Shown: one piece after another, positions 928 to 22,851 of the stretch | Layout: every line of letters starts with the position of its first letter | Numbering within the stretch: position 1 is the first letter of the stretch | Virus record (IMG/VR): IMGVR_UViG_3300035016_000024 | Span: 1 to 30,550 of that record | DNA from: a virus | DNA: 30,550 bases | Direction: 5' to 3' (one strand) | Translations under genes and position numbers: made by a program | The notes under the pieces: model-generated | What the model was told of the DNA's origin: nothing | Database searches by the model: none | Seen by the model: the letters and a program-made list of their open reading frames with translations, nothing else

Positions 928-3096
928 TCACCCCCGGACCGTGTCGTAGGCCGCGCCGCCACGGCGAATGGCGTCGAGCGTCATCGCCGAGGACTGGCGG
1001 GCAATCTGCCCGGCCAGCAGCCGCAGCCGCGCCTCGACGCTGGCGTCAGCGCCACGCGCGTCGATGGCGATGCTGGTGTGGATCGTGGTGCTGCCGGGCG
1101 CGGTGCCGTTCGGCAGCACCGTCCCCGACTGGCGGGGGACGAACCACTCCGGCCCGCGCTCGCCGACTACGTAGGGTTTTCCTGAGTCGACCGGCCCGCC
1201 CTCGGCCCGGAACAGCCCCCCGAGCCAAGAGCCCATGCCGCTGAACATGCTGTCGAGCGAGAAGCCGGACAGGGCGGAGGAGACCGCATTGCCGAGCGGC
1301 TCGGTGATGGTACGGCGGGCGATCACGCGGGCGATGTCCTGCAGCAGGCCCTGCATGACCTTCGACAGCTTCTCGCCGCGCACGATCGCGTCCTCGAAGG
1401 CGCTGGAGAAGGTGAGCCCGAGCTCGCGCACCGTCTCCGAGGTTCGCTCGGCGCCCTCCGCGATCCGCCGCTCGGTCCGCTCCAGGTCCTCCATCGCGCG
1501 CTCGGCCTCGCGCTGGACCGTGGCGTCGGGCAGCGGCCGGCCGATCCGCTCCGAGCGCTGGACCAGGTCGGAGAGCCGCTCCAGCCGGCGCCCGTAGCGC
1601 TCATAGGCGGTCTCGTTGTCGGCGATCAGCCGCTCGCGCTCGCGGAGGATCTCGTTGACCTCGCGCTCGGCCTCGCGCGCCTCCCGGGCGCCGTCGTTGC
1701 TCGCGCGCCGGACCGCAGCAACGCGGGGTTCCAGGCGACGCAGCGCCTCGTCGCGCTCGTGCAGGGCGAGCGTCTCAAGCCGGGTGCGCTCGGCGGCGGT
1801 GACGCCGCCGGCCGCCTCGGCCTCGCGCAGCCGGCGCAGGCGCTCCTGGTATTCGCGCTCGATGCGGAAGCGGTCGTCGAGGTCCTTCGTGAGATCGAGC
1901 ACGTCCTGCGCCGTGCGGCGGCGGCGAGCATCTGCGGCCTGCTGGCCGGCGCGCTCCCCCTCCTCGATGCGGCGCGCTGTCGCGGCGCGCTCGGCGGCGT
2001 CCACCTCGGCCAGCAGGTCGAAGTACCGCTGCCGCAGCTCGTCGAGGCGCTGCCCCGGATCCACCCCGGCCTGCTGCTGCGCGGCCCCAACCAGGCCCGC
2101 ACGGATCGTGCCGCGACGGGGCTGGGCGCGCAGGCTCGGGCGGCCGTCATTCTCTGCCTCCAGCCGGGCGATCTGGTCGGCCAGCGCCTGCAGCTGCCGC
2201 CGCTGCTCGGCCAGCCGTTCGGTGTCGGCGAGCAGGCCGGCACCCTGCCGCACACCGTCGAGCGCGCGTGCGGCGCCGGACAGCGCGCGGGCCAGCGTGT
2301 TCGACAGGCCGATGGCGCGGTCGAGCTGGCCGAGGAAATTCTCGGTGGCCGCGCTCAGCTGGCCGAAGGCGCGGCCGAGCGAAAGCGGGGCCTTGTCGAG
2401 CTCCGCGCCGAGCCGCTCGGTGGCGCGCAGCAGGGCGGGGAACACCCGCTCGGCGGTGAGCTTGCCCTCGGAGCCGAGCTTGCGCAGCTCGCCGATCGAG
2501 ACGCCGAGCTCGCGCGCCAGGCCCTCGGCCAGCAGCGGCATGGCCTCGAGGATGGAGCGGAGCTCGTCGCCCTGCAGCACGCCCGAGGCCAGCGCCTGCG
2601 CAAGCTGCAGGGTGGCGCTGCCGACCTCGGCGTTGGACGCGCCGGAAACGACGGCGACGCGCTGCAGGCCGGCCACCAGCCGGGCCACCTGATCCGAGGT
2701 GGCGCCGATCGCGCGCGCGGCGATCGAGAACCGCTGGAAGGCGTCGACGCTCTCGGAGACCGCGACGCCGGTGGACAGCGCGCTGCGATACAGCGCCTCG
2801 TAGACAGCCCCCGCCCGCTCGACCGAGCCGGTGGCGGTCTGCAGGCGCGAGAGGCTCTGTGTGAGCGCATCGCCGGCCTGGACCAGCGCCCGTGCGGCCA
2901 CTGCCGCGCCGGCGAGCTGGATGCCGCGCGTGGCCACGTCCAGCAGTTCCAGCGAGCGGGATGCGCGCTCGGCACCGCCCTTGATCTGGTCGAGTGAGCG
3001 CTGGCCGGTCTCGCCGACCTCGCGCAGCCCGGCCTTGACCCGAGCGGCGTCGTCCAGCGAGAGGCGCACCGAGACGCGGCGGGTGGCGTCGGCCAT
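928..3096 (-). CDS. Phage tail tape measure protein
   Basis: This 722-residue protein sets tail length and is threaded through the tail tube before DNA ejection. Residues about 60-260 match the tape-measure N-terminal domain (ALVQAGDALTQSLSRLQTAT, then SVDAFQRFSIAARAIGAT and LAQALASGVLQGDELRSIL). Residues about 280-560 are Arg/Glu/Ala-rich and predicted helical coiled coil. The C-terminus (about 560-722) resembles the lambda-type tape-measure C-terminal domain, with LTFSSAFEDAIVRGEKLSKV and the Gly-rich RAEGGPVDSGKPYVVGERGP segment. It begins one base after the stop of the chaperone extension frame. The length is modest for the family, implying a fairly short siphovirus tail. Confidence 0.93.
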   Translation of the reverse strand: MADATRRVSVRLSLDDAARVKAGLREVGETGQRSLDQIKGGAERASRSLELLDVATRGIQLAGAAVAARALVQAGDALTQSLSRLQTATGSVERAGAVYEALYRSALSTGVAVSESVDAFQRFSIAARAIGATSDQVARLVAGLQRVAVVSGASNAEVGSATLQLAQALASGVLQGDELRSILEAMPLLAEGLARELGVSIGELRKLGSEGKLTAERVFPALLRATERLGAELDKAPLSLGRAFGQLSAATENFLGQLDRAIGLSNTLARALSGAARALDGVRQGAGLLADTERLAEQRRQLQALADQIARLEAENDGRPSLRAQPRRGTIRAGLVGAAQQQAGVDPGQRLDELRQRYFDLLAEVDAAERAATARRIEEGERAGQQAADARRRRTAQDVLDLTKDLDDRFRIEREYQERLRRLREAEAAGGVTAAERTRLETLALHERDEALRRLEPRVAAVRRASNDGAREAREAEREVNEILRERERLIADNETAYERYGRRLERLSDLVQRSERIGRPLPDATVQREAERAMEDLERTERRIAEGAERTSETVRELGLTFSSAFEDAIVRGEKLSKVMQGLLQDIARVIARRTITEPLGNAVSSALSGFSLDSMFSGMGSWLGGLFRAEGGPVDSGKPYVVGERGPEWFVPRQSGTVLPNGTAPGSTTIHTSIAIDARGADASVEARLRLLAGQIARQSSAMTLDAIRRGGAAYDTVRG

Positions 3097-3097
3097 C

Positions 3098-3418
3098 TCA
3101 GGTGGTCTCCCCCTCGCGGCGGGCGGCCGCGCCCTCGGCCATGCCGGCGCGGATGGCGAGCAGCAGCTCGGCAGCGGCCCAGCCCGCGGCGCCGAGCTCG
3201 CGTGCCGTGGCGAGCGCGCCGGCGGTGTCGAGGGTCAGGCCGGCCATGGTCGCCTCGGCGCAGGCCGTGACCGCAGCCCAGCAGGCGTGGCCCTCGATGC
3301 TGGTCGGGGCGTGTGCGGCGTAGGGGCAGGCCTTGGCGCAATCGCGGCCGAGGGCGGCGCAGCCGCGGCAGTATTCGGGCCCGCGGCCGAAGTGCCAGGC
3401 GGCGCGGGCCCTCAGCCG
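3098..3418 (-). CDS. Tail assembly chaperone, -1 frame extension (T part of a G/GT pair)
   Basis: This frame is open from the slippery site at 3418-3424 down to a stop immediately before the tape measure. It has no ATG, GTG or TTG near its beginning. The only independent start would be CTG at 3415, overlapping the previous TGA. It encodes about 106 residues, with CRGCAALGRDCAKACPYAAH (cysteines at roughly 17, 20, 27 and 31) followed by an Ala/Glu helix. Gene order (tube, chaperone, out-of-frame extension, tape measure) and the lack of a start match the lambda G/GT arrangement. I read it as made only as a fusion, about 230 residues with the upstream frame. The Cys cluster might bind a metal. 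Initiation at CTG is the alternative. Confidence 0.75.
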   Translation of the reverse strand, partial: RLRARAAWHFGRGPEYCRGCAALGRDCAKACPYAAHAPTSIEGHACWAAVTACAEATMAGLTLDTAGALATARELGAAGWAAAELLLAIRAGMAEGAAARREGETT

Positions 3419-3789
3419 TTTCCCTCGGCGGCCACCGCCGCGACCGGCGCCGTGGCGCGGTCCCAGAACGCGGCGGCGATGTCGTCGAGGTCCATCAGGC
3501 GCTCGACCGCCTCGGGCGAGAGCGGCAGCGGCTTGCCGGCAGCGTCGCCGACGCCCTCCCAGGCCGTCACGGCGTGCCGGGCGAGCGCCTTGACAAGGAA
3601 GGCAAAGGACAGGCCGCGCGACATGTCGGGGTCGAGCTCCGGGTCGGCGATGCGGATCGCGGCCAGCCGGCGCGCGGCGGCGGCCTGGGCGGCGGCCATG
3701 ACCGCAGTCGTGACCGGGCGGATCTCCACGCGCACGCCGCGCGGCAGGTCGAGCCAGTAAGGTTCGATGGGGATGTCGAGGGTGAGCAT
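3412..3789 (-). CDS. Phage tail assembly chaperone (G-like)
   Basis: This 125-residue protein precedes the tape measure and probably chaperones it during tail assembly. I start it at the ATG at 3789 because GGAG (3796-3799) lies six bases upstream. A second in-frame ATG at 3801 lacks a clear ribosome binding site. The protein opens with MLTLDIPIEPYWLDLPRGV (beta), followed by helices (VMAAAQAAAARRLAA, FLVKALARHAVTAW) and an acidic LSPEAVERLMDLDDIAAAFW segment. It ends EGNG at a TGA, with the slippery heptamer three codons before the stop. Its natural upstream neighbour, the tail tube gene, is separated from it by the 2.7-kb kinase insertion. Confidence 0.8.
   Translation of the reverse strand: MLTLDIPIEPYWLDLPRGVRVEIRPVTTAVMAAAQAAAARRLAAIRIADPELDPDMSRGLSFAFLVKALARHAVTAWEGVGDAAGKPLPLSPEAVERLMDLDDIAAAFWDRATAPVAAVAAEGNG
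3418..3424 (-). other. Programmed -1 frameshift site, G GGA AAC
   Basis: On the minus strand the chaperone frame reads GAG GGA AAC GGC TGA, so the heptamer G GGA AAC sits in the XXXYYYZ phase needed for -1 slippage. It is one base from the lambda G-T site (G GGA AAG). Slipping leads into CGG CTG AGG and the otherwise start-less extension frame. I see no obvious pseudoknot just downstream, although the following sequence is very GC-rich. Confidence 0.82.
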
Positions 3790-4025
3790 GCCGGTCTCCA
3801 TGGCTTGCGGATGCAGATTGCCGGTCGGACCGTGTCCATTCCGGCGAAGCGGCGCCCCTGCGACCCGATCCGCTCAGCGCCATCGAGCGACCGTCTCGCC
3901 GACAGACTATTCCTGAGTCTCGGTCCGCCGTCCGTGTCGGCGATCCGGCCGCCCGCATCCAGCCGGAGGCGGCATGCCACGCTCAGACGTTGAGGATCTG
4001 CCGAGCGATTTCTCTCGCATGTTGC

Positions 4026-4048
4026 GCAACCGTTGGGCGTTCGGTTGC
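4026..4048. repeat. Inverted repeat upstream of the kinase gene
   Basis: Perfect 7-bp arms, GCAACCG and CGGTTGC, are separated by a 9-base spacer. The left arm overlaps a TTGCGCAA palindrome at 4022-4029. It lies in the 335-bp gene-free stretch (3790-4124) before the HWE kinase and overlaps the candidate -35 box. It could be an operator or a hairpin in a leader. Nothing else gene-like is visible in that stretch. Confidence 0.4.
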
Positions 4049-4073
4049 ACCTTCGCGCGGGCGGACCGAATAT
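4045..4073 (+). promoter_or_regulatory. Candidate promoter for the HWE kinase gene
   Basis: TTGCAC (4045-4050) and GAATAT (4068-4073) are spaced by 17 bases, about 50 bases upstream of the kinase ATG. AGGG at 4112-4115 supplies a ribosome binding site nine bases from that ATG. The -10 match is only moderate. A dedicated promoter would be needed because the gene opposes the surrounding late operon. Confidence 0.35.
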
Positions 4074-4124
4074 CTACGAGATGCATCGCAAACCGCGACG
4101 GACGCACCCGCAGGGAACACACCG

Positions 4125-6320
4125 ATGAATCCCTCACGGCCCGAGCCGACGACGGGCTCGGCCGCAGTCATCCCTTCCGGCGCCGAAGCGCGGGCCCCGG
4201 CCGGCGGTCTGCCGCGCCGGCCTGGCCTACGGGCACATCTGCTCGTGCTCGTCCTGGCCGTGCTGCTGCCCTCGCTCGCCTTCGGCGCTGGGGTCGCCTG
4301 GCATCTGGTCGAGAACTACCGTCGTGCCTTCGAGGAGCGCCTGACCGACACGGCGCGCGCGCTCGGCTTGGCCGTCGACAACGAGATCGAGACGCACTTC
4401 GCGGTCCTGACCGCGCTCGCCGCCTCACCCACGCTGGACGGCTGCGGCGGGGGCGCCACCGAAGATGGCGCCTGCGACCTCGGCGCCTTCGACGCCCACG
4501 CCCGGCGTGCCGCGGAGGCCCTCGGCACCGAGGTGATCCTGATCGGCCCCGACCTCCGCCAAGCCGTCAATACCAGCCTGCCCCGCGGCGTGCCGCTGCC
4601 CGTGACCGGCGCCGCCGAGGCCGCCCGCCGGGTGCTGGAGAGCGGAAAGCCGGAGGTCATCGATCTGGTGGTCGGGGCGGTGGCGCGACGGCCCGTCGCG
4701 GCCGTGCTCGCGCCCGTCCTGCGCGAGGGCCGCCGGGTCGGCGTGCTCGCGACGCGCCTCGATCCCGACCGCCTGCGCGGCATCCTGGCGGCGCAGACGA
4801 GCCGCAACGGAGAGGCGGGCGGCGGTATCTTCGCGATGCTCCTGGACGGGCGAACGACCGTGGCGGCCCGCTCGCGCGGCCATGACGACCTGGCAGGCCG
4901 GCCAGCCCCCGACTGGTACGCCCAGGCGGTCGCCGGACGCGGACGCGGTCTGGCGCACGGCCCCACGCTCGACGCCGGTGACGCCCTGGTCGCGTTTCAG
5001 AGGCTTTCCCGGGCGCCCGGCTGGACGCTGGTGGTCGCCGAGCCACTCGCCGCCTACCGCGCAAGCTGGCGCGGCCCCTTGCTGGGCCTCGCCGCCGGGG
5101 GCGCCGCTGCACTCGCGCTCGGACTCGCACTCGCGGTGGCGCTCGCGCGGCGCACGCTGCGGCCGGTGGCGGCGCTGGTGCGCCACGCGAAGGCCGTGGC
5201 CGCGGGCGCTGGCCGGGGGCCGGAAGCGCCGCCGGCCGTCGCCCCTGCCGACGTGGCCGAGTTCGAGGCGCTGCGGGTCGCGATCGAGGACGCCGAGGCG
5301 GCGCTGCGCGAGGGCGAGGACCGGCTGCGCCGGGCGCAGGAGGCGGGCGGCGTCGGTGCCTGGGAGTGGGACATCGCCTCGGGCCGGGTCCACTGGTCGG
5401 ACGGCTACTACCAGATCTGGGGCATCGACCCGGCCGAGCCGGCCTCCTACGAGGGCTTCCTGCGCCACGTCCTGCCCGAGGACCGGCCCGCCCTGGAGGC
5501 GGCGCTAGCCGAGGTGCTGCGCACCGGAGGACGCTGGCGGCACGAGTTCCGCATCCGCCGCCCGTCGGACGGCGCGCTCCGCTGGCTGGCGGGAGAGGGC
5601 GAGGTGGAGCGGGACGCCGCCACGGGACGGCCGATCCGGATGGCCGGCGTGAACCGCGATGTCACCGAACGGCGCCAGGGCGAGGAGCACCGGGCGCTCC
5701 TGATGCGCGAGCTCGTCCACCGCACCAAGAACATGCTGAACGTCGTCCAGGCTGCCGTCCGGCTGACGCCGAGAGACGATCCGGAGGCGTACGCCCGGGC
5801 GGTGGAGGGCCGGGTAGCGGCACTGGCGCGCGCGCACATCCTGCTGGCCGAAACGCGCTGGTCCGGTGCCGAGCTTCGGCCGCTCGCCGAGGCGGAGCTG
5901 GCCCCGTTCCTGCACGGCCCGCCCCCGGCGACCGGCGCCCCGCCGGTGGCCGAACTCGAGGGGCCACCGGTGGTGCTGGCGCCGGAGGCCGCGCAGGCGC
6001 TCTCGATGGCGCTGCACGAGCTGGCGACGAACGCGACCAAGCACGGAGCGCTGTCGGCACCGGGCGGGCGCGTCTCGGTGTCCTGGGGGGTGGACGCCGC
6101 CGCGGGGCTGCTGCGGCTTCGCTGGGTCGAGCGCGGCGGCCCTGTGCCGGCCGGGCCGCCGGCGCGGCGGGGCTTCGGGTCGCGCGTGGTCGAGGCGACG
6201 GTGCGCGACCAGCTCGGGGGCGCGGTGGAACGGCGGTGGGAGGCGCCCGGCCTGGTCTGCGAGCTCACCGCGCCGCTCGAGCGCGTGCTGGCGGGCGGGG
6301 CCGCACGCGCCGCGGCGTAG
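4125..6320 (+). CDS. Membrane-bound PAS-HWE sensor histidine kinase
   Basis: This 731-residue kinase starts at the ATG at 4125, behind AGGG (4112-4115). The frame is open further upstream, but that part has no kinase-like content. Order: cytoplasmic N-terminus, TM1 (about 37-60), a periplasmic Cache-like sensor region (about 60-315), TM2 (about 317-341), a HAMP-like linker, a PAS domain (about 403-515, with GAWEWDIASGRVHWSDGYY) and an HWE kinase module. Visible motifs are phospho-accepting H532 in ELVHRTKNMLNVVQA, the HWE-class N-box HELATNATKHG (H631, N636) and the diagnostic W-x-E (W667, E669). It opposes the phage late genes and sits between tail tube and tail chaperone. No receiver is adjacent; the nearest one is at 13.5 kb. 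The ligand is unknown. Confidence 0.93.
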   Translation: MNPSRPEPTTGSAAVIPSGAEARAPAGGLPRRPGLRAHLLVLVLAVLLPSLAFGAGVAWHLVENYRRAFEERLTDTARALGLAVDNEIETHFAVLTALAASPTLDGCGGGATEDGACDLGAFDAHARRAAEALGTEVILIGPDLRQAVNTSLPRGVPLPVTGAAEAARRVLESGKPEVIDLVVGAVARRPVAAVLAPVLREGRRVGVLATRLDPDRLRGILAAQTSRNGEAGGGIFAMLLDGRTTVAARSRGHDDLAGRPAPDWYAQAVAGRGRGLAHGPTLDAGDALVAFQRLSRAPGWTLVVAEPLAAYRASWRGPLLGLAAGGAAALALGLALAVALARRTLRPVAALVRHAKAVAAGAGRGPEAPPAVAPADVAEFEALRVAIEDAEAALREGEDRLRRAQEAGGVGAWEWDIASGRVHWSDGYYQIWGIDPAEPASYEGFLRHVLPEDRPALEAALAEVLRTGGRWRHEFRIRRPSDGALRWLAGEGEVERDAATGRPIRMAGVNRDVTERRQGEEHRALLMRELVHRTKNMLNVVQAAVRLTPRDDPEAYARAVEGRVAALARAHILLAETRWSGAELRPLAEAELAPFLHGPPPATGAPPVAELEGPPVVLAPEAAQALSMALHELATNATKHGALSAPGGRVSVSWGVDAAAGLLRLRWVERGGPVPAGPPARRGFGSRVVEATVRDQLGGAVERRWEAPGLVCELTAPLERVLAGGAARAAA

Positions 6321-6462
6321 GGGCTGAGGCCGCAGGTCCCTGGGTCCATCGTGCCACGGCGAGGGCGAGCCACCGTTCGTCCGTCCGGGTCGGCCTGCGG
6401 AACCACGCCGCGCCCAACGCCCGCTCCACGCCTGCCGAGGTGGCGCGGTCCGCCCGCTGGGC

Positions 6463-7419
6463 TCACGCATACTCCGTTCCTGCCTGCTGGTTCTTCAGCA
6501 CCGCGGTCATCATGCGCGTCGCAGTGGCGTTGTAGGCGGCACGGAACTCGAAGCTCGCCTCGACGCCAGCCGGCCCCTCGATCGGCGTCTTGGCAAGCGC
6601 CAGGTAGACCTCGTGCAGCGTGAAGGTGAGGCTGCGGTTCGCGTCGATGGTGAACGCGAAGGCGAACTCTGCCGCGGTGCCGTTCCCCGCCTGCGTCAGC
6701 AGCGTGGTGTCGGCGAAGCGGGCGGTGATCTGGCCGGTGGCGCGTGCGATGCCGGGATCCGCGCCCTCGATCTTGCGGTCGGCGCGGATGGTGCGCACCG
6801 CCTCGACGCTGTTCGAGTAGGCGAGCCGCGCGTCGGTGACCTGGGCCAGCGCCGCCCCGCCGCGGGTGATCGAGCCCTGTGCCTTGTGGAAGGCGGTGTA
6901 GGCGGCCGTCGTCGGCGTGCCGCCGGAGGACGAGCCGGAGCGGGCCGAGCCCTGGGCGATCAGCTTGATGGTGGCCGTGGCCGGCCCGGTCGGACTGAAG
7001 TCGATCTCCAGCGCATCCGCACGGACGCCGGTGCAGACGTCGTGGCTCGGCACGTCCGGATAGCCGATCTCGATCGCCTGGGAGGGCAGCGTCGCCGCGC
7101 CCGAGCCGAAGGTGTGGGTGTAGTTCGGAACCGTGCCGGTGGTGGTCGGCGCGCCGAGCAGCAGGCGCAGCCAGTGGCCGATGTTGATCAGGTCCACCGG
7201 CACGACCACCTCGCCCTCTACGGTGACGGTGTCAAGGAAGGGTGCAGCGGGATCGCGGTTGCCGCCGAGGCCGATGACGTCGGCGTCCAGCAGCGGCTGC
7301 TCGGCGCCCAGATTGCAGGAGAGGAAGGGCACGCGACGCCAGTTGCCGCCCGGTGCGGTGCCGTAGGTGACCTCGGGGATCATGAGCAGGCGCGAATTCG
7401 CGCCGATGGCACGAGGCAT
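6463..7419 (-). CDS. Major tail tube protein
   Basis: This 318-residue protein is predicted to polymerise into the tail tube. It begins MPRAIGANSRLLMIPEVTYG, the typical opening of siphovirus tube proteins. It continues with repeated beta segments (VTVEGEVVVPVDLINIGHWL, ALEIDFSPTGPATATIKLIA). The second half resembles the first in composition (ITRGGAALAQVTDARLAYSN), as expected for duplicated tube folds. It ends in a Thr/Ala-rich strand segment (VEASFEFRAAYNATATRMM). It lies directly downstream of the tail terminator, with a GGAG-like site upstream. It would normally be followed by the tail chaperone, but the HWE kinase gene intervenes. Confidence 0.88.
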   Translation of the reverse strand: MPRAIGANSRLLMIPEVTYGTAPGGNWRRVPFLSCNLGAEQPLLDADVIGLGGNRDPAAPFLDTVTVEGEVVVPVDLINIGHWLRLLLGAPTTTGTVPNYTHTFGSGAATLPSQAIEIGYPDVPSHDVCTGVRADALEIDFSPTGPATATIKLIAQGSARSGSSSGGTPTTAAYTAFHKAQGSITRGGAALAQVTDARLAYSNSVEAVRTIRADRKIEGADPGIARATGQITARFADTTLLTQAGNGTAAEFAFAFTIDANRSLTFTLHEVYLALAKTPIEGPAGVEASFEFRAAYNATATRMMTAVLKNQQAGTEYA

Positions 7420-12265: not shown

Positions 12266-13354
12266 CTAGGGCGCGCCGTTCGCTGCCGGGAACCGCATGG
12301 TCCACGCTGCCCCGCGGCCCGCATCAGGCGTCGTGGCCTCGGGCCGTCCAGTCGTCGTCTCAAGCCGACCGCCCAGCTGGGCAGCCAGGGCACGAGCGAG
12401 GCGCGTCCCGAGCCCGGTGCCTTTCGGCGGCGCCCCGGGGTCGATCCCCACGCCGTCGTCCTCGACCGACAACTCGAACTCGGCGCCATTGCGATGGAAG
12501 CCGATCGCGACGGATCCGGCGCGGTCGTCAGGAAAGGCATACTTCAGGGAGTTCGCGACCAGCTCGTTGACGATGAGGCCGAGCGCGATCGCGCGGCCGA
12601 CCGGCAGTTGGTGCGACTCGGCTTTCACCCGAAGCGCGATGGGTCGCAGGCCGATGGCCACCTCCCTGAGATCCTCGCCCAGGCCCTCCAGAAAGGCGCG
12701 GCTGTCGAGCGAGGCGTCGGTGTGCCAATGCTGCTCAAGACGACCGTTCACGCGGGCGAGCGCCTGGATCCGGGCCGCCGCCTCGCCGAGCGCCTCGCGC
12801 GCCGAGACGTCGTCCTTCGCGGCCGCGATCTGCAGATGCAGCGTCGCCGCGAGCCGCTGGAGGTCGTTGCGCCCTCGGTGGATCGCCTCGCGGAGCAGCG
12901 TTTCCTTCTCGGCATCACTTGATGCGAGCCTCTCGTTGGCCTCCGCAAGCGCGGCAGCGTCCGCCGCGATGCGCTCGCGCGACCTCGCGACCGTGGCGAA
13001 GGCGACGTGCAGCGCCTCCATAAGGAAAGCGATGAACAGCGTGATCGCAAGATAGATGGCCGCGCCGATCACATCGAACGGGTTGTCGAACCCCAGACGC
13101 CCAAGCGGGGGCACAAACAGCCAGACCGCGAGAGCACTCGAGAGGATCGCGGCATATACGCCCGTTCCCCGATCGAACAGGACACCCGTGATCACCACGA
13201 CGGGGAAGAACAGGAGGAACGGGTAGCCAGGGTTCCACCCGAAGATGAGCACACGTAGAGCCACTGCCAACACGACGAGGGCCGTTGTCGCCAAGTAGCG
13301 TGCCCAGGCGGGAAAGCCACGTGTGGTGGCGGTGTAGGCGAAGAGGCGCTCCAT
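12266..13354 (-). CDS. DUF4118/HisKA_2-type sensor histidine kinase
   Basis: This 362-residue kinase begins at the ATG at 13354. The N-terminus has about four membrane segments (residues about 18-38, 45-60, 65-83 and 94-118) of the DUF4118/KdpD-like type, with almost no periplasmic sensor domain. A coiled-coil linker (about 122-155) leads to the dimerisation helix LLREAIHRGRNDLQRLAA, with candidate phospho-acceptor H159. The ATPase domain has N-box NELVANSLKYAF (N263-F274), G1 DDGVGI (about 299-304) and G2 GTGLG (312-316). It is transcribed away from a single-domain receiver gene 173 bases off. The pair is wedged between the portal and capsid genes. The stop is 55 bases upstream of the capsid fusion ATG. 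The signal sensed is unknown. Confidence 0.92.
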   Translation of the reverse strand: MERLFAYTATTRGFPAWARYLATTALVVLAVALRVLIFGWNPGYPFLLFFPVVVITGVLFDRGTGVYAAILSSALAVWLFVPPLGRLGFDNPFDVIGAAIYLAITLFIAFLMEALHVAFATVARSRERIAADAAALAEANERLASSDAEKETLLREAIHRGRNDLQRLAATLHLQIAAAKDDVSAREALGEAAARIQALARVNGRLEQHWHTDASLDSRAFLEGLGEDLREVAIGLRPIALRVKAESHQLPVGRAIALGLIVNELVANSLKYAFPDDRAGSVAIGFHRNGAEFELSVEDDGVGIDPGAPPKGTGLGTRLARALAAQLGGRLETTTGRPEATTPDAGRGAAWTMRFPAANGAP

Positions 13355-19958: not shown

Positions 19959-21239
19959 CTAACCTGACCTGCCGGCGCCGCCGCCCGCACCACGGGTGGC
20001 GGCGACATCATCGAACACCCGGTCCTCGCCCGCCAGCACCGCAGCCCGGCCGGTGAAGGCCTGCCAGCGCCGCACCGCCACGTCGACGTAGGGCGCGTCG
20101 ATGTCCATCGCGTAGCAGACGCGCCCGGTGGTCTCCGCGGCGATGATGGTGCTGCCGCTGCCGCAGAACGGCTCGTAGACCGCATCGCTTGGGGCGCTGT
20201 TGTTCAGCATCGGCCGGCGCATGCACTCCACCGGCTTCTGCGTGCCGTGGACCGTGGCGGCGTCCTCGTCTCCGCCCGTGCTGATCGGCCAGAGCGTCGC
20301 CTGGTCGCGCGCGCCCTGCCAATGGCCGGTCGCACCCTTGCGCACGCCATAGAGGCAAGGCTCGTGCTGCCAGTGATAATCGCCGCGCCCCAGCACGAAG
20401 CGCGACTTCGCCCAGACGATCTGGCTGCGCACGGCGAAGCCGCAGGCTTCCAGGCTCTCGATCACGGTGCGGGCGTGCACGCCCGCGTGCCAGACATACG
20501 CCACGTCGCCCGGGAACAGCGCCCAGGCCTGACGCCAATCGGCGCGGTCATCGTTCGCAACCTTTCCGGTGCGCATCGTGGCGGAGACGCCCGCCTCGTT
20601 CCGCCACTCGGGATCGTAGTTCACCCCGTAGGGCGGATCGGTCGTCATCAGGTGCGGCCGCCCACCATCCAGCAGTCGGGCGACGTCCGCCGCGCTGGTG
20701 GCGTCGCCGCAGAGCAGTCGGTGCGGGCCGAGCAGCCACAGATCGCCAGGGCGCGTGACGGGCGCCTCCGGTGGCTCCGGCGCTGGCGCGTCCGGATCGC
20801 CGCTGGCCGCTGCCGGCCCGTCCGGCGCCACCTCGTCCAGCAGGCGATCGAGCATCGCGCCGTCGAAGCCGATCAGCCCGAGGTCGAACTCGTCGGTGCG
20901 CAGCGCGCGCAACTCGGCCGCCAGCAGGCTCTCGTCCCAGGTGGAGTTCAGCGCCAGCTGGTTGTCGGCCAGCCGGAAGGCACGCGCCTGCGCCTCCGTC
21001 AGATGCCCGAGCCGGATGGCGGGGACTTCCTCCAGCCCGAGCGCCTTCGCGGCGAGGACGCGGCCATGGCCGGCGATCAGCACGCCGGCATCATCCACCA
21101 GCACCGGCACGTTGAAGCCGAACTCGCCGATCGAGGCGGCCAGCTGCGCCACCTGCTCGGTGGGATGCAGCCGCGCGTTCGCCGCGTAGGGCGCGAGCGA
21201 CGCTACTGGCATCATCTCGACGCGAAGGTCAGGCAGCAT
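19959..21239 (-). CDS. ParB-N domain / DNA methyltransferase fusion (first copy)
   Basis: This 426-residue protein has a ParB/Srx-like domain (residues about 8-135; LIAGHGRVLAAKALGLEEVP with the GHGR signature at 57-60) joined to a class-beta-order DNA methyltransferase. Catalytic motif IV is DPPYG (201-205), the SAM-binding motif FCGSGST is at 358-364, and HGTQKPVECMRRPML supplies the conserved Q-K-P. DPPY suggests an N6-adenine or N4-cytosine product. The ATG at 21239 overlaps the stop of the preceding paralogue by 11 bases. No restriction gene is nearby, so it is likely an orphan phage methylase for anti-restriction or regulation. The target site cannot be read from sequence. Confidence 0.92.
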   Translation of the reverse strand: MLPDLRVEMMPVASLAPYAANARLHPTEQVAQLAASIGEFGFNVPVLVDDAGVLIAGHGRVLAAKALGLEEVPAIRLGHLTEAQARAFRLADNQLALNSTWDESLLAAELRALRTDEFDLGLIGFDGAMLDRLLDEVAPDGPAAASGDPDAPAPEPPEAPVTRPGDLWLLGPHRLLCGDATSAADVARLLDGGRPHLMTTDPPYGVNYDPEWRNEAGVSATMRTGKVANDDRADWRQAWALFPGDVAYVWHAGVHARTVIESLEACGFAVRSQIVWAKSRFVLGRGDYHWQHEPCLYGVRKGATGHWQGARDQATLWPISTGGDEDAATVHGTQKPVECMRRPMLNNSAPSDAVYEPFCGSGSTIIAAETTGRVCYAMDIDAPYVDVAVRRWQAFTGRAAVLAGEDRVFDDVAATRGAGGGAGRSG

Positions 21240-22695
21240 CGGTCATGGCCTCCGCGCGCGCCGCAGCGATGGTATCGTAATCGCGGCCATCGTCCGCCAG
21301 CGTCACCGGCAGCTCGGGATGCAGCATCCGCCAGCGGGCCACGGCCAGGTCGACATAGGCCGGCGCCAGTTCGATGGCGCGGACGCGGCGCCCCGTGCGC
21401 TGGCCGGCCAGGATCGTCGTGCCGGATCCGCCGAAGGGCTCGAACACGATGTCACCTTCGTCCGTGTAGGCGCGCATCAGGAACTCCGGCAGCGCGACGG
21501 GGAACACCGCCGGGTGCTCGGTCTCGATGCCCCGCCCCTTGTGGCGGGTGATGCGCAGCACACTGTCGGGGATCCGCATCTCCTGCACCGGCAGGCCGAT
21601 ATGGGTGTAGGCCTTCACCTCGCCGTCCGCGGCGCGGAGCCCGCTGCCCTTGTTCGGCGTGCCCGCCCATTTGCACGGCACGATTTTGTTCGCCTGCCGC
21701 GACTGGCGATTGAAATGGAAGACGAACTCGAAGGCCGGCGCGAGCCGGCCATTCCAGTCGCCGGGCAGGCCGGGCCCCTGATCCCAAGCATACAGCCCGA
21801 AGCGGCGCCACCCCTGTGCGCGCATCCAGTCGAGCCAGCCCTGCCAATACGGCTGCCATTCCCGTTCGCGGTGGATCAGCCCGAGGTTCACCAGCACCTG
21901 CGCGTCACGCCGCAGCGCGCCTTCGAGATGCTGGAACACGCCCTGCATCAGCGCGTCCCAATCGGTGCCGCCGCCAGTCGTGTAGTCGCGCTGGTTCCCG
22001 TAGGGCGGGCTGGTGAACAACATTGCCGCGCGATCGGCGGCCATGACACGGGCGACCGTGGAGCGGTTGGTGCTGTCGCCGCAGGCGAGCCGGTGCTCGC
22101 CCAGCAGCCAAATGTCGCCCACGCGCGCGACGGCCTGGCGCGGCGGCTCCGGCTCGGCGTCTGCGGGATCCTTGGCCGGCTCGGCGCCGTCCGTGACCGG
22201 CTGGTTGCCAGGAGCCAGATCCGCGCCGCTGGCAACGGCCGGCGTCGGCAGGTTGCCGGCCTCGGTTTCCAGCCCGGCCAGCAACCGCTCGATCTCCGCA
22301 CCGTCGAAGCCCGTGAGCGCCAGGTCGATCCCGCCGACCTCCTGCAGCTTCGCGACCTCGGCGGCGAGCAGCGCCTCGTCCCAGCCGGCGTTGAGCGCGG
22401 TGCAATTGTCGGCCAGCCGATACGCCGCCTTCTGCGCGTCGGAGAGGCCGGCGCGGACGATGGTCGGCACCGTGTCGAGGCCAAGCGACTTTGCGGCCAG
22501 CAGCCGGCCGTGTCCGGCGATGATCTCGCCGCGTTCGTCCACCAGCACTGGCGCAACGAAGCCGAACTCAAGGATGCTGCTCGCGATCTGCGCCACCTGC
22601 TCGGCAGAATGCGTGCGCGCGTTCCCAGCATAGGGCAGCAGCGCGGCAACCGCGCGCGCCTCGACGGCGCTCGCAGCCCAGAGGGACTCAGGCAT
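21229..22695 (-). CDS. ParB-N domain / DNA methyltransferase fusion (second copy)
   Basis: This 488-residue paralogue of the next gene begins at the ATG at 22695 (GTG at 22701 is possible; AGG lies just before the ATG). The ParB-like domain (about 10-140) carries EIIAGHGRLLAAKSLGLDTV, with GHGR at 61-64. A Pro/Ala linker follows (about 145-190), then the methyltransferase with motif IV TSPPYGNQRDY (228-238) and SAM motif FGGSGTT (421-427). SPPY, unlike the DPPY of its neighbour, is more typical of N4-cytosine enzymes, so the pair may modify different bases. A central insertion (about 280-350) is absent from the first copy. It is divergent from the cupin gene. Confidence 0.92.
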   Translation of the reverse strand: MPESLWAASAVEARAVAALLPYAGNARTHSAEQVAQIASSILEFGFVAPVLVDERGEIIAGHGRLLAAKSLGLDTVPTIVRAGLSDAQKAAYRLADNCTALNAGWDEALLAAEVAKLQEVGGIDLALTGFDGAEIERLLAGLETEAGNLPTPAVASGADLAPGNQPVTDGAEPAKDPADAEPEPPRQAVARVGDIWLLGEHRLACGDSTNRSTVARVMAADRAAMLFTSPPYGNQRDYTTGGGTDWDALMQGVFQHLEGALRRDAQVLVNLGLIHREREWQPYWQGWLDWMRAQGWRRFGLYAWDQGPGLPGDWNGRLAPAFEFVFHFNRQSRQANKIVPCKWAGTPNKGSGLRAADGEVKAYTHIGLPVQEMRIPDSVLRITRHKGRGIETEHPAVFPVALPEFLMRAYTDEGDIVFEPFGGSGTTILAGQRTGRRVRAIELAPAYVDLAVARWRMLHPELPVTLADDGRDYDTIAAARAEAMTDAA

Positions 22696-22851
22696 CTGCA
22701 CCTACGTGATGGTGGAATGGGGGGTGCCGCGGCTGGCAGATGCAATCTGCGGAGGGCGGGGGGCCGCGTCTCGAAGGAAAGGTTTGCTTGTCAGCCCAGG
22801 AACACGTGTAAGCTTCCTGCAACAAGCCTAACCAGGATGGAAGAGACGACT

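Follow-up and report, generated by a model that had tools for sequence, protein, structure and literature searches.

The window analyzed here, a 30,550-base IMG/VR virus record with a GC content of 72%, encodes terminase subunits, a fused head-protease protein, a head decoration protein, ParB/methyltransferase proteins, and a primase, as well as a tail module in which the genes for tail tube, tail assembly chaperone, and tape measure protein follow one another in lambda-like order. Its close relatives come from genomes of Roseomonas, Falsiroseomonas, Siccirubricoccus, Neoroseomonas, and other Acetobacteraceae, and the virus is of prophage type, from Roseomonas-like bacteria. Two overlapping frames lie between the tube gene (7419-6463) and the tape measure gene (from 3096), with a histidine kinase gene intervening between tube and chaperone. 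The features of the locus are as follows:

928-3096, minus strand: tail tape measure protein (722 aa), encoded immediately downstream of the two frames (Pfam TMP_3, E=4.2e-51; phrog_339, E=4.1e-60)
3098-3418, minus strand: T-like extension in the -1 frame, 106 codons plus stop, the first part of which has no start of its own (translation)
3326-3370, minus strand: four-cysteine cluster, CX2C-X6-CX3C (alignments A4/A5)
3377-3411, minus strand: probable stimulatory stem-loop, 6 nt past the heptamer, GGGCCCGCG-CCG ... CGG-c-CGCGGGCCC
3412-3789, minus strand: zero-frame tail assembly chaperone, G-like, 125 aa
3418-3424, minus strand: slippery heptamer G_GGA_AAC in -1 phase (direct reading of the sequence)
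3990-6320, plus strand: sensor histidine kinase (Pfam PAS and HWE domains, weak HAMP), on the opposite strand inside the tail module
6463-7419, minus strand: tail tube protein, upstream (Pfam Phage_tube_2, E=1.2e-51)

Two further observations concern genes outside this locus. Between the head protein and terminase genes, the product of 12266-13354 (minus strand) weakly matches the phage 'kinase' family phrog_10912 and is a second kinase-like protein in the window. The adjacent proteins encoded at 19959-21239 and 21229-22701 (both minus strand) both match ParB-nuclease/DNA-methyltransferase profiles (phrog_498), possibly reflecting a tandem duplication.

The zero-frame protein matched the phrog_313 'Tail assembly chaperone' profile (E=2.8e-15, residues 13-114 against profile positions 27-125 of 258), while Pfam and NCBIfam searches with it returned no match. 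With a GGAG 6 nt upstream of the ATG at 3789, its length is most likely 125 aa; an alternative start at 3801, given in the open-reading-frame listing, would yield 129 aa. The end of the frame reads GCC GAG GGA AAC GGC TGA, placing GGGAAAC in X_XXY_YYZ phase one codon ahead of the terminator (TGA, 3414-3412), with 10 nt from the start of the heptamer to the stop codon. Past the heptamer, the -1 frame contains 106 sense codons (3418-3101) and ends in a TGA at 3100-3098, just before the tape measure ATG at 3096, as the preliminary description had indicated; the product sizes proposed there, about 125 and about 230 aa, likewise hold with the ATG at 3789. The same description had the second frame lacking any ATG, GTG, or TTG start. 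This is correct for the window between the heptamer and the Cys motif, the first in-frame start downstream being an internal ATG in 'TMAGL' near 3248, but not for the region upstream, where the frame is open to 3958 and forms, on paper, an ATG-started ORF of 286 aa (3958-3098). The upstream part of that ORF is a by-product of the 72% GC content: in 12 of 242 relatives, the -1 frame is closed at or just before the heptamer, by a stop no more than 36 nt from the conserved WHFG of the extension.

As a word, GGGAAAC is not rare in this DNA, with two copies on the minus strand of the 30,550 bases against 0.77 expected from a dinucleotide model. A chance match in phase and one codon short of the chaperone stop is unlikely, and the heptamer can be taken as more than chance because its position and phase are conserved in relatives, which we collected from IMG/VR, a genome collection, and isolated phages. 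The second frame stands in a -1 relation in 242 of 246 relatives, and in 240 of these 242 a canonical heptamer lies exactly 27 nt before the TGG of WHFG (GGGAAAC in 184, AAAAAAC in 53, and AAAAAAA in 3). These results bear out the lambda-type -1 site proposed at 3418-3424, together with its phase, and answer the call of the preliminary description to examine homologous loci for both. The arrangement is retained in distant relatives with chaperones of ~27-49% identity. The zero-frame stop, unlike the fixed heptamer, lies anywhere between -26 and +100 nt relative to WHFG and therefore does not belong to the signal, and the occurrence of different heptamers at one place would be hard to explain without selection for slipping.

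Among close relatives, GGGAAAC is in phase and 10 nt before the stop in 178 of 183 distinct cores. Two of the other five are artefacts in which the heptamer is present, one behind an assembly gap of Ns (L087) and one with an upstream indel (L212); two are distant phages in which more sequence separates heptamer and stop (L083, L084); and the last, L041, is genuinely altered. In 171 aligned cores, picked by position alone rather than by heptamer and including the distant L084, 169 of 169 glycines encoded at the heptamer use GGA, a codon that serves for 6 of the 1,099 glycines in the rest of the chaperone gene, and no codons of that gene are under stronger synonymous constraint than the three of the heptamer.

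The heptamer is lost in L041 and degenerate (ACAAAAC) in L335. In L041, a single metagenome contig, a G to T change within 3340-3420 turns GAGGGAAAC into GAGTGAAAC and creates GAGTGA, a stop overlapping a GTG (a GTGA stop-start overlap), which may mean that coupled re-initiation has naturally replaced frameshifting, that the copy is dead, or that the sequence is in error. L041 is at most the one relative of the kind that the preliminary description had set against its own reading, namely one without the heptamer and with a started second gene. Two other relatives, L269 and L270, carry GAAAAAAAAC, with one A more (A8), ~28 nt before WHFG, and read chaperone and extension in one frame; this may be a constitutive fusion or a homopolymer sequencing error.

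The preliminary description of the site holds with respect to heptamer, phase, and frames, but did not include the probable stimulatory stem-loop that follows. This hairpin is built from the codons for A-x-A-x-W-H-F-G-x-G. In the window, its stem is GGGCCCGCGCCG...CGGcCGCGGGCCC, in which a C is bulged and the outer stem is displaced by one nt in register, while many AAAAAAC relatives have GCGCCCTTGCCG...CGGCGGGGGCGC. The minimum free energy of the 39-nt segment is -25.5 kcal/mol, with a z of about -2 against synonymous-codon shuffles, and mean z values are -1.5 for the GGGAAAC group and -1.8 for the AAAAAAC group. RNAalifold run on alignment A3 did not recover the long stem, returning only a 3-bp hairpin, and the long stem was assessed by counting pairs explicitly and by shuffling codons. 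Across 54 representatives, pairing holds in 85% of the cells of the stem in the true register versus 46-52% in slid registers, and a count on 37 relatives gave 80.9% versus 45-52%. Two-sided changes in the stem cells of these 37 relatives exceed those in all 500 shuffles, which ignore relatedness, and they are frequent at one pair only (columns 15-46), which carries most of them and may reflect a single clade-level event. An internal Shine-Dalgarno stimulator lies 9-14 nt upstream in the dnaX frameshift; none was evident at that distance from the heptamer.

The extension of 106 residues has invariant R1, W8, H9, F10, G11, G13, C17, C20, C31, and W47, with one further Cys at variable spacing. 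Alignments place four cysteines in a cluster, in agreement with the Cys-rich character ascribed to the extension beforehand, and the homologous extension of distant relatives often shows the spacing CX2C-X3-CX2C instead. The cluster may bind metal. An AlphaFold2 model (pLDDT 89.8) is helical with a short hairpin. Searches of Pfam, PHROG, NCBIfam, and PDB sequences with the extension gave no match, and a fold search of the PDB gave nothing significant, which is not proof of a new fold; matches in BFVD were weak and non-significant, and the three annotated tape-measure chaperones among them are compatible with a T-like role but do not prove it. We consider it possible, albeit doubtful, that the extension, with its four clustered cysteines, WHFG motif, and confident model lacking a clear solved relative, represents a distinct class of metal-binding T-domain whose own first codons double as a rate-setting RNA stem-loop. 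Protein and RNA signals would then share the same 35 nt, and if such a class exists, tail assembly might depend on metal loading or redox state.

Taken together, the phase and conservation of the heptamer, the absence of a start behind it, and the sizes of the products support the lambda G/GT-like interpretation given in the preliminary description. We put the probability at roughly 95% that -1 frameshifting of this kind yields a 125-aa protein and a minor 230-aa four-cysteine fusion. Most ribosomes would terminate at the TGA at 3414-3412 to give the G-like chaperone, while a minority would slip one base back on G_GGA_AAC, probably aided by the stem-loop with its 5' edge 6 nt downstream, and continue into the GT-like fusion with its terminal four-cysteine helical domain. 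In lambda, tail-tube subunits are recruited by the minor fusion, while the short form coats the tape measure protein; by analogy, the two products would have the same roles here. Both lambda products bind that protein, and gpGT is the minor one, with a gpG to gpGT ratio of ~30:1 (PMC5009743). Ribosomes of E. coli slip less readily on A_AAC than on A_AAG, favoring AAG in the A site (PMC5009743), and the rate at the present site is therefore to be judged in an alphaproteobacterium. The two forms are predicted to be distinguishable by their peptides, with ATAPVAAVAAEGNR or ...EGK for the fusion and ATAPVAAVAAEGNG for the short form. A tryptic peptide across the join (E-G-N/K-R-L) had been proposed as a check; the peptide would be ATAPVAAVAAEGNR (or ...EGK) and would not reach into R-L, because trypsin cuts after the first -1-frame residue.

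The -1 frame could instead be an independent gene, initiated at the CTG at 3415, at an upstream in-frame ATG located within or ahead of the chaperone gene, or by coupled re-initiation at the TGA. The ATG-started ORF at 3958-3098 supplies such a start on paper, and the change from GAGGGAAAC to GAGTGAAAC in L041 supplies a stop-start overlap. CTG initiation is undermined because the codon is not conserved, being CTG in 96 relatives, CTA in 76, and CTC, CTT, ATC, ATA, or TTA in 70. An upstream start fits poorly with the 12 relatives whose -1 frame is interrupted by a stop no more than 36 nt from WHFG, and 26 relatives have no table-11 start at all between their last -1 stop and WHFG. Between the heptamer, itself included, and WHFG, L041 alone has an ATG, GTG, or TTG. 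Given that an independent gene also leaves the fixed phase and place of the heptamer unexplained, we regard it as very improbable.

More improbable still is transcriptional slippage, in which RNA polymerase would stutter on an A run and produce mixed mRNAs, some encoding the fusion. About a quarter of the relatives do have A6C or A7 runs, and L269 and L270 carry A8 with an in-frame reading; the process is possible in the A-run relatives. The window and 184 of the 242 relatives, however, have just GGG plus AAA, runs too short for polymerase slippage to be expected, and the X_XXY_YYZ phase with a stem-loop at 6 nt is a ribosomal signature, making it unlikely for GGGAAAC. That no recoding occurs, the heptamer being ordinary coding sequence and the -1 ORF either spurious in 72% GC DNA or a decaying gene, is barely credible even in a window holding many long spurious ORFs, as invariant Trp, His, Cys, and Gly residues persist in the -1-frame protein, itself conserved down to ~25-40% identity, a rare codon for Gly has become fixed, and heptamers of different sequence occupy one position.

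The gap between the tube and chaperone genes, positions 3802-6462 of the window, is a variable, defense-rich cargo site in relatives. In 200 relatives with both genes seen, the gap has a median of 758 nt and exceeds 500 nt in 127, and its most gene-like ORFs form 87 clusters, between which no similarity was detectable. Pfam domains were found in 14 of 20 cargo proteins scanned, most of the 14 being defense-like; the domains include TIR, SIR2 with STAND NTPase, patatin, PLD, a PD-T4-6-like kinase, GmrSD, and caspase, as well as HEPN/Toprim, Mrr, HNH, AAA_21, Schlafen AlbA_2, and RES (examples are L012, L019, L039, L045, L057, L059, L106, L149, L260, and L263). Known hotspots of prophage defense occupy P2- and P4-like elements as well as two further sites, in prophages of Vibrionaceae and Bacillus (PMC9122126). 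The position between tail tube and chaperone is not among the sites in the passages of that study covered here, and we found no description of it. From its gene content, the gap looks like a prophage defense island inside the tail operon. The cargo of the window itself is the histidine kinase gene, which none of the other relatives collected carries.

Tail-chaperone frameshifting in phages is textbook knowledge, and phage lambda G/GT resembles the window in gene position before the tape measure, type of slip, and phase. The lambda record confirms the G GGA AAG that the preliminary description had given for the corresponding position of G, with GGGAAAG lying 25 nt ahead of where the stop codon ends and an extension of similar size (144 aa). 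The two systems differ in the A-site codon, which is AAC in the window and AAG in lambda; in the extension, which is Cys-rich with WHFG in the window, whereas the lambda T translation shows neither; and in the stem-loop, which is evident in the window but weak in the corresponding lambda stretch (-6.3 kcal/mol).

Programmed frameshifts are usual in tail assembly chaperone genes (PMC8601537). Phages of the Rhodobacter RcC cluster, RcKemmy among others, have a homologous chaperone and extension with ~33% identity over the fusion. In RcKemmy, GGGAAAC is in phase as in the window, and the GenBank annotation is a two-piece joined chaperone; unlike in the window, the zero frame passes the heptamer to a stop 97 nt from the heptamer's start, the cysteines are more closely spaced, and the stem is GCGCCCTTGC...GCAAGGGCGC. 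Burkholderia phage KL1 (gp18/gp19) likewise has GGGAAAC immediately before the chaperone TGA, described as a frameshift with a predicted downstream stem-loop (PMC3483164), but its extension lacks the Cys cluster and WHFG, and an extra gene precedes the tape measure. The two main heptamers of the window's family recur in other phage groups, likened here by heptamer alone: chaperone frameshifts ahead of the tape measure gene are described for the Caulobacter phages phiCbK (AAAAAAC) and Colossus (GGGAAAC) (PMC3556154), and a G_GGA_AAC tail-chaperone frameshift for the haloarchaeal virus HCTV-1 (PMC5009743).

Thus, the type of frameshift and the GGGAAAC tail-chaperone site are already known, and existing annotations of the homologous Rhodobacter phages include the join. 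The family of the window has a conserved recoding cassette of heptamer, 6-nt spacer, probable stem-loop, and Cys-rich T-like domain, spread across Acetobacteraceae prophages and other, mostly environmental, phages, in which gene callers will overlook the extension or assign it a false start. Both of its main heptamers have AAC as the A-site codon, unlike the AAG of lambda, and the family is therefore a natural set for studying the effect of host tRNA on the choice of slip site.
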